DNA of 64,000 bases from Spirochaetales bacterium (lineage in GTDB: Bacteria; Spirochaetota; Spirochaetia; Sphaerochaetales; Sphaerochaetaceae), in the NCBI GenBank assembly GCA_028722305.1, contig JAQYHB010000042.1, positions 1-64,000 of the forward strand, in the 5' to 3' direction. The notes under the pieces were generated by a model, which worked only from the letters and a program-made list of their open reading frames with translations, was not told the origin of the DNA and searched no databases. Below, piece by piece: positions 1 to 1,851 of this stretch (positions are counted from its first letter, which is position 1; every line of letters begins with the position of its first letter). Both the position numbers and the translations under genes were made by a program.

Positions 1-137
1 AGGGCACCAACAACATGATCAAGACCACACGCAGATGCGCCTACGGTTTCAGGGACACCCAGTACTTCTTCTACAAGATCTACGAGAACTCCCGCAAGCC
101 AACTCAAAACTGGCTATCCCACAAAATTCTGATTTGA
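1..137 (+). mobile_element. ISL3-family transposase, C-terminal fragment (cut by window edge)
   Basis: The frame starting at base 3 is open from the window edge to a TGA at 135-137 and encodes 44 residues. It begins GTNNMIKTTRRCAYGF and continues with an aromatic-rich YFFYKIYE segment. This resembles the extreme C-terminus of ISL3-type transposases, where an (E)GTNN-IK motif follows the last catalytic Glu of the DDE domain. Everything upstream lies outside the window, so intactness cannot be judged. No terminal inverted repeat or target duplication could be recognised downstream of the stop. Family assignment is from motif memory only. Confidence 0.72.
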
Positions 138-221
138 ACCATCAAAAATTGTCCACACAGGGGAAGGAGAAAAGGAGTATCAGGACACGCCCTTCAAGGA
201 TTGAAGTTCGGATCCGCACAA

Positions 222-367
222 ATAAAAACGCCCACAAGCTTGCACTCTTGGGGGCGTTCCGCATATATGCGGGGGAGGTTTTCCGCTGCTACCTCAAAAG
301 AACTGAGGGGAAAAACAACAGGCGGAAAACAAAGATGGAACCGAAAAGAAAGATTTCCATCGTTATC
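222..367 (-). ncRNA. Candidate small structured RNA of about 140 nt
   Basis: Read on the minus strand, a transcript starting near 364-367 would fold into four successive helices. Bases 355-361 pair with 334-340. Bases 323-329 plus 319-321 pair with 279-288, enclosing a smaller helix 304-308 with 292-296. Bases 259-272 form a 14-base perfect palindrome. Bases 247-258 pair with 227-238 and are followed by a T-rich run. The last helix is a typical intrinsic terminator on this strand only. An extended -10 element lies directly upstream. I could not match it to 6S, SRP, tmRNA, RNase P or a known riboswitch. Alternative: debris of the insertion-sequence end that happens to fold. Confidence 0.45.
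227..258 (-). terminator. Intrinsic terminator ending the small RNA candidate
   Basis: Twelve-base arms (247-258 and 227-238) pair with one A/G mismatch around an 8-base loop. On the minus strand they run into TTTTTATTTG. On the plus strand no T-run follows, so the orientation is clear. Confidence 0.6.
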
Positions 368-370
368 TCC

Positions 371-399
371 ACTATATCAACTTCCTCCAAAAAAGGGAA
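371..399 (-). promoter_or_regulatory. Extended -10 promoter for the candidate small RNA
   Basis: On the minus strand the -10 hexamer TATAGT (371-376) is preceded by TGA, giving the extended -10 form TGnTATAAT. A weak -35 TTCCCT sits 17 bases upstream (394-399). Predicted initiation is near 363-367, at the base of the first RNA helix. Confidence 0.4.
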
Positions 400-523: not shown

Positions 524-1219
524 CTAACGGAGCTCGAAGACAACGGTAACCTCTTCGGAGACATCCAGAGTCCCGCGTTCGATGGCGGTCGAATTATCAC
601 TAGCGGCCATCGGCGCCGCCAGCTTGTAGACCGGCATGGGCATGACCTCCCCGCCTCCCGCCGCAATCGAGCGGGCCTTGCCCACCCGTAGGGAAAGAGG
701 AGCCGCATAGGCCACTGCCTTCGCATAGGCGTCACGTACAGCCTCTTCCCGAGCTTTGGCATAGGCATCGCCCTTGTCCTCCTTGTCGAAGGCAAGGGAG
801 GCAAGAGAGATAGAGTCGACCGAACCAAGTTTGTCGACAACGGCACCCAACTGATCCAAATTCCGGACCTTGACCGCTATGGATTGTTGGGAAGACTGCC
901 CTACCAGCACCTGGGCGTTGTTCTTCCACTCGTAGGAAGGAGAAAGGCGGACGCTCTGGGTGGCGATATCCTTGCTTGCAATGCCCTGATCTTTCAGGAT
1001 CTCAAGCACTTGGGCGACCTTCCTGTTGGCGGCGGCAAGCGCCTCGCCGGTAGTCGGACGGGTCTCATCCACCTGTACTAGGAAGGTGGCGATATCGGGA
1101 ACCACTTGGGCGCTTCCCGATCCGGTGACGGTGATTGTCCTGCCATTTGAGGTCAGGTTCTGGCAACCAATCAGGGAAATCGAACAGACGGCAACCAACG
1201 CAAGAATCCATCGCTTCAT
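524..1219 (-). CDS. SIMPL-domain (DUF541) lipoprotein
   Basis: A 231-residue exported protein. The N-terminus MKRWILALVAVCSISLIGC is a lipoprotein signal with a lipobox Cys at residue 19, so it is probably membrane-anchored in the periplasm. The rest, opening with ITVTGSGSAQVVPDIATF, is the SIMPL/DUF541 (YggE-like) fold; its molecular role is unsettled, with proposed links to oxidative stress or envelope assembly. The start at 1219 is chosen over an in-frame upstream Met because AGGAG lies just before it and the signal peptide begins there. It overlaps the stop of the upstream NUDIX gene by four bases (ATGA), so the two are translationally coupled and sit in one unit with mrp. Confidence 0.9.
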   Translation of the reverse strand: MKRWILALVAVCSISLIGCQNLTSNGRTITVTGSGSAQVVPDIATFLVQVDETRPTTGEALAAANRKVAQVLEILKDQGIASKDIATQSVRLSPSYEWKNNAQVLVGQSSQQSIAVKVRNLDQLGAVVDKLGSVDSISLASLAFDKEDKGDAYAKAREEAVRDAYAKAVAYAAPLSLRVGKARSIAAGGGEVMPMPVYKLAAPMAASDNSTAIERGTLDVSEEVTVVFELR

Positions 1220-1851
1220 ATCCGGCTCCTTTCGTCTGGAACATCCCTGAGTCCGGGACGCTTGGCGCACTCCTTCAGGAAGAAGCAGGCGGCCATCAGC
1301 ATGATGCCATTATCGTACATCCCCGTGCCGATGTCACGGAGCACTTCCTCGACAGGGATGGAAAGGACGTCCAGCTGTTCGTTGGGATCAAGCTTCTGTC
1401 CCTCGACGTGGCGTAACCCCTCGGCAAGGTAGAAATGGGAACGGTTGCCCATGAAGGCGCTGTTGGGACTGACATTGCCGATCTCCTCCAGTTTCTCCGC
1501 CTTGCTGCCGGTCTCTTCCAGCAACTCCCGGGCGGCGGCCACCTTCGGATCCTCACCCTTCTCCACCAGGCCGGCGGGGAATTCGCGGGTGACAGTGGCG
1601 CTGCCGTGACGGAACTGTTGCTCCATCACGAACATCGCCCTGCCCTCCTCGTTCCGGTACCAGGGAATCACGGTGATCCACTCCGGGCTCTCCACACGGC
1701 AGAAGTCTCCCGTCCTGCCGTCGGTCGAAGACCGCTTGACAAGCGTGACATCGAAAATCGGACCGTGCCAGGCAAGCTTTTCCTGCCCGTCATCCTTCCA
1801 GACGAGATGGTCCGGGTGAAGGGGATCCCCCATGAGAAACGGGTCGTTCAC
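1216..1851 (-). CDS. NUDIX hydrolase, ADP-ribose pyrophosphatase-like
   Basis: A 211-residue protein with a complete Nudix box at about residues 94-116: G, five residues, E, seven residues, REL-LEET-G. This motif binds Mg2+ and supplies the catalytic glutamates. The total length and the N-terminal beta-rich part preceding the box resemble ADP-ribose or sugar-nucleotide pyrophosphatases (NudF type). The substrate is not proven. The chosen GTG start overlaps the mrp stop as GTGA, with GGAGG ten bases upstream; an ATG six codons later has no ribosome site. A longer frame runs back into mrp but is only a shadow of it. It lies between mrp and the SIMPL gene, overlapping both by four bases. Confidence 0.9.
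   Translation of the reverse strand: MNDPFLMGDPLHPDHLVWKDDGQEKLAWHGPIFDVTLVKRSSTDGRTGDFCRVESPEWITVIPWYRNEEGRAMFVMEQQFRHGSATVTREFPAGLVEKGEDPKVAAARELLEETGSKAEKLEEIGNVSPNSAFMGNRSHFYLAEGLRHVEGQKLDPNEQLDVLSIPVEEVLRDIGTGMYDNGIMLMAACFFLKECAKRPGLRDVPDERSRI

Follow-up and report, generated by a model that had tools for sequence, protein, structure and literature searches.

A small RNA of ~145 nt is encoded on the minus strand at positions 221-365 of the window (the whole stretch of 64,000 nucleotides of Spirochaetales DNA analysed here), in an intergenic position. Comparative sequence evidence shows that its fold is conserved, which strand encodes it, that promoter and terminator are conserved with it, and that it does not depend on the adjacent genes; on this evidence the RNA gene is almost certainly real and independently transcribed. 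The RNA is probably best explained as a family-specific, independently transcribed regulatory RNA acting in trans by base pairing. The preliminary description of this DNA had proposed that a structured RNA of unrecognised type lies here between a promoter and a terminator of its own, and that it may be an sRNA acting in trans, and this main reading is supported by the sequences of the relatives. We infer a 5' end near 364-366 and a 3' end within the T-tract near 219-222.

Fold, covariation and conserved unpaired motifs

Read from its 5' end, the RNA is predicted to fold into one hairpin, then a long one interrupted on one side by a pyrimidine bulge, then a short one, and to end in an intrinsic terminator (Table 1). 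The four consecutive minus-strand helices previously placed in 227-361 are all present (334-361, 278-330, 259-272, and 227-258), including the one with an inner helix and a bulge (hairpin 2, with a one-sided bulge of 7 nt) and the 14-base perfect palindrome (CCGCATATATGCGG). The stretch had also been described as devoid of genes, and no recognisable gene was found to overlap the small RNA.

Table 1. Features of the small RNA and its surroundings in the window.
Feature	Position	Strand	Evidence or remark
ISL3 transposase C-terminus	3-137	opposite to RNA	PF01610, E = 1.9e-4, just short of the Pfam cut-off
Small RNA	221..365	-	~145 nt; fold, covariation in 23 homologues, promoter and terminator positions
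Intrinsic terminator AACGCCCCCAAG-AGTGCAAG-CTTGTGGGCGTT and T-tract	219..258 (stem-loop 227-258)	-	covarying stem, conserved loop
Hairpin 3, palindrome CCGCATATATGCGG	259..272	-	
C-rich linker CUCCC, hairpin 2 to hairpin 3	273..277	-	kept in only part of the homologues
Hairpin 2	278..330	-	outer helix GTTTTCCGC/GCGGAAAAC, inner helix, apical helix CCTCA/TGAGG
One-sided pyrimidine bulge UUUUUCC (7 nt) of hairpin 2	309..315	-	candidate pairing site
Hairpin 1 (GATGGAA...TTCCATC)	334..361	-	fold; relatives have a hairpin in the same place with a different sequence
Extended -10 TGATATAGT	371..379	-	same element in homologues
Weak -35 TTCCCT	394..399	-	17 nt from TATAGT
SIMPL (DUF541) gene	524..1270	-	PF04402, E = 6.7e-45; conserved upstream neighbour, outside the RNA

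The minus-strand fold of positions 200-400 has a predicted energy of -70.4 kcal/mol, compared with a mean of -49.1 for shuffled sequences (z = -5.0; 0 of 200 shuffles). The plus strand is also more stable than its shuffled versions (z = -3.8), as expected from complementary helices, so that other evidence was needed to assign the strand. Such evidence came from the cells in modelled pairs, where 57 G-U combinations occur versus 8 A-C combinations, an excess which assigns the RNA to the minus strand.

Compensatory base changes, which the preliminary description had proposed to look for among relatives, are abundant. In an alignment of 23 sequences, 95.4% of the cells are paired and 23 of the 33 modelled pairs changed on both sides (98 cells; 0 of 500 shuffles as high), in an alignment that had been fitted to the structure and is therefore biased in favour of covariation; sliding the partners destroys the signal, the slid controls being far lower. 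Within the family, every one of the 13 pairs modelled in the outer and inner helices of hairpin 2 changed on both sides, as did all four modelled pairs of hairpin 3, where 100% of the cells are paired. Covariation was scored for the modelled part of the RNA, with the 5' hairpin left outside the covariance model; the position of the latter holds a hairpin in every lineage folded, with differing sequence. The same hairpins recur when 14 homologues are folded one by one.

The terminator had been called canonical, with a T-run. Its stem-loop (227-258) is present, while the T-run of the window copy is interrupted (TTTTTATTTG) and a simple scan for terminators misses it; in most relatives the T-runs are uninterrupted. 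The conserved, covarying stem and the T-tract form an intrinsic terminator on the same strand as the RNA, as is characteristic of a bacterial sRNA.

Two unpaired motifs are conserved. The bulge of hairpin 2 together with the next CC gives the core UUUCCCC, which is retained in the bulge across all lineages, including the diverged g11 copies with remodelled helices, and the bulge is mostly unpaired in each of the 14 homologues folded. The terminator loop (A/G)GUGCAAG (RGUGCAAG) is retained in nearly all copies, whereas its closing pairs covary, as exemplified by the terminator of L067 (CATG-AGTGCAAG-CATG). Conservation of a terminator loop is unusual, and that of RGUGCAAG suggests a function. 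A pseudoknot between this loop and the bulge was considered and rejected, since no more than 4 pairs could be drawn by eye and it is impossible in the window's copy.

Distribution and comparison with known RNA families

Among 60 relatives searched at the DNA level, two congeners have clear orthologues, and so do two complete genomes that belong to another genus. Covariance models built from five sequences and, subsequently, from 23 sequences matched 30 and 31, respectively, of 139 Sphaerochaetaceae genomes, with matches spanning 5 of the 22 genera of the family. When 395 genomes of the class were scanned, every match fell inside Sphaerochaetaceae, under strict filters that weak copies may escape. 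A degenerate pattern search of named genomes retrieved Sphaerochaeta, Sphaerochaeta halotolerans, Pleomorphochaeta, further spirochaete records, and a single match in Thermoanaerobaculia (L085), which was dismissed as chance, having no such fold and resembling coding sequence. A second covariance match in G004 (L075, E = 0.003) is also attributed to chance, as it falls on the antisense strand of a methionyl-tRNA synthetase gene; E-values near 0.003 are thus not trustworthy alone, and a similarly weak match in G065 was accepted only because it is located 3' of the NUDIX gene, in the same orientation, and retains both motifs. Copies from g18, the Pleomorphochaeta-type genus (L064, L065, L066, and L068), have a longer hairpin at the 5' end, and the loop sequence of this hairpin is conserved.

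The Rfam search suggested by the preliminary description agreed with its view of the RNA as unrecognised: no family of Rfam 15 matched the RNA region at the gathering cut-off, and with the threshold relaxed to E = 5 the 4227 families gave just two matches, both to eukaryotic families and attributed to chance. The RNA family is absent from Rfam 15; its general kind is known. Its helices covary and it forms a transcription unit of its own, two traits shared with the stand-alone structured RNAs of that collection.

It resembles 6S RNA (RF00013) in length and in being an independent, structured RNA of bacteria; however, the Rfam model does not match it, and its hairpins stand in series, unlike the long rod with a central bubble of 6S RNA. 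Identity with 6S was rejected, because the relatives G004 and G024 carry separate 6S candidates at another locus. These candidates, L036 (G004) and L037 (G024), score 44.5 and 41.5 bits, respectively, against an Rfam cut-off of 46.4, and the current model probably misses the 6S RNA of Sphaerochaeta-type genomes; the genus of the window itself yielded no convincing 6S candidate. RNAs that act as CsrA sponges (CsrB type) carry repeated GGA motifs in their hairpin loops. By this usual rule a CsrA sponge was also rejected, since the loops here are pyrimidine-rich or GUGCAAG and none contains GGA.

Candidate pairing mechanism and the protein-binding alternative

For the mode of action, trans pairing through the bulge is proposed by analogy with RoxS of Bacillus subtilis, whose C-rich regions bind Shine-Dalgarno sequences (PMC4409812). 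Similar to RoxS/RsaE of Firmicutes, the spirochaete RNA is a stand-alone sRNA in which unpaired C-rich stretches adjoin U-rich ones; it differs in that there is no sequence or covariance-model match, the fold is another one, and the phylum is not the same. RoxS has several C-rich regions, whereas the spirochaete RNA has one main bulge. The chances that the C-rich bulge pairs with ribosome-binding sites seem to us about even. In such a mechanism, the pyrimidine bulge (core UUUCCCC) would be exposed and kept open by the rigid hairpin, and would pair with purine-rich ribosome-binding sites of the GGGGAAA type, by which translation would be blocked. Pairing would proceed without Hfq (PF17209), which was not detected in ten family genomes from five genera, and the terminator loop RGUGCAAG may provide a second site for pairing or docking.

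Searches for start-proximal GGGGGAAAA or GAGGGGGAAA sites yielded an orthologous target in a single pair of closely related species only, and the bulge paired with the ribosome-binding regions of 67 window genes no better than its shuffled versions did. GGGGAAA near ATG is commoner than the reversed pattern, an excess which ordinary purine-rich ribosome-binding sites could explain.

The chief rival of trans pairing is a protein-binding role, in which the RNA would act on proteins as a sponge or scaffold, as 6S or Y RNA does, with the bulge and the RGUGCAAG loop docking a protein and no mRNA being paired. The two unpaired motifs keep their sequence while the surrounding helices covary, as such a role would predict, and the target searches, which found none, point the same way; but the separate 6S candidates of two relatives and the loops free of GGA speak against the 6S and CsrA-sponge versions, and no Rfam protein-binding RNA matches, so that we consider this role rather unlikely. 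It is also doubtful that the RNA represents a dual-site or protein-binding class new to Sphaerochaetaceae, with the bulge and the terminator loop as docking sites; if it did, the terminator hairpin would be a working part of the RNA.

The literature searched contained no study of sRNAs in Sphaerochaeta. With comparative support that would suffice for a curated covariance model, a conserved promoter and a clear candidate pairing site, this RNA family offers a concrete way into RNA regulation in Hfq-less spirochaetes of free-living or gut habit, some of them culturable.

Promoter and genomic neighbours

The claim of an own promoter held up among the relatives: 22 of the 24 loci examined have a TG-extended -10 exactly 17 nt from a -35-like hexamer, 35 to 73 nt ahead of the modelled part of the RNA, with a promoter score that in most loci was matched by at most 5 of 200 shuffles. 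The exceptions are L043 (genome G001), with TGGTATATC correctly placed, and L069. The -35-like hexamer is TTAACA in most Sphaerochaeta-type loci and TTGACA in g18, one or the other being found in most relatives, while the window copy (TTCCCT) is poor. Taken together, the RNA appears to have its own promoter, as expected of a bacterial sRNA. The extended -10 of the preliminary description is present (TGATATAGT, 371-379), but the end at 376 given there cuts through it.

Upstream of the RNA, a NUDIX gene is found in 24 and SIMPL in 22 of 30 loci. The minus strand of the window carries, one after another (524-2675), genes for an Mrp-type ATPase, the NUDIX hydrolase and the SIMPL protein, and in most relatives the latter two occur together ahead of the RNA. 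In most loci the RNA stands behind SIMPL in the same orientation, and it might accordingly be the 3' end of the SIMPL mRNA, either an elaborate terminator or a 3'UTR-derived sRNA. However, its own conserved promoter is located between SIMPL and the RNA, and the RNA is kept in g11, where SIMPL is missing, and in g18, where NUDIX and SIMPL were not found beside it, which makes a mere SIMPL 3' end improbable.

The genes 3' of the RNA are unrelated in kind across loci, lie on either strand, and are often convergent, so that the RNA has neither a cis target nor a cis gene partner, in keeping with a trans-acting sRNA. A leader, riboswitch or attenuator that controls a downstream gene in cis would also be a structured RNA ending in an intrinsic terminator, but these differing genes, among which there is no conserved co-directional one (the next gene in the window is the ISL3 transposase, on the opposite strand), effectively rule it out and leave it very improbable.

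An ISL3 transposase end (3-137; PF01610, E = 1.9e-4) does adjoin the RNA as described, its gene ending ~85 bp from the RNA 3' end; an RNA or terminal repeat of that insertion sequence is nevertheless ruled out, with a negligible chance of being correct, given that its own genome holds one copy of the RNA and that orthologues in other genera occupy the conserved place behind NUDIX-SIMPL, with unrelated downstream genes and no shared downstream element. No plasmid, phage or viral contig matched the RNA sequence either, and an origin from any of these was rejected on that account. The first base of the window is also the end of its contig (G000:C42 base 1) and falls within the ISL3-type transposase C-terminus (window 1-137); repeated elements often break assemblies, leaving contig ends inside them.
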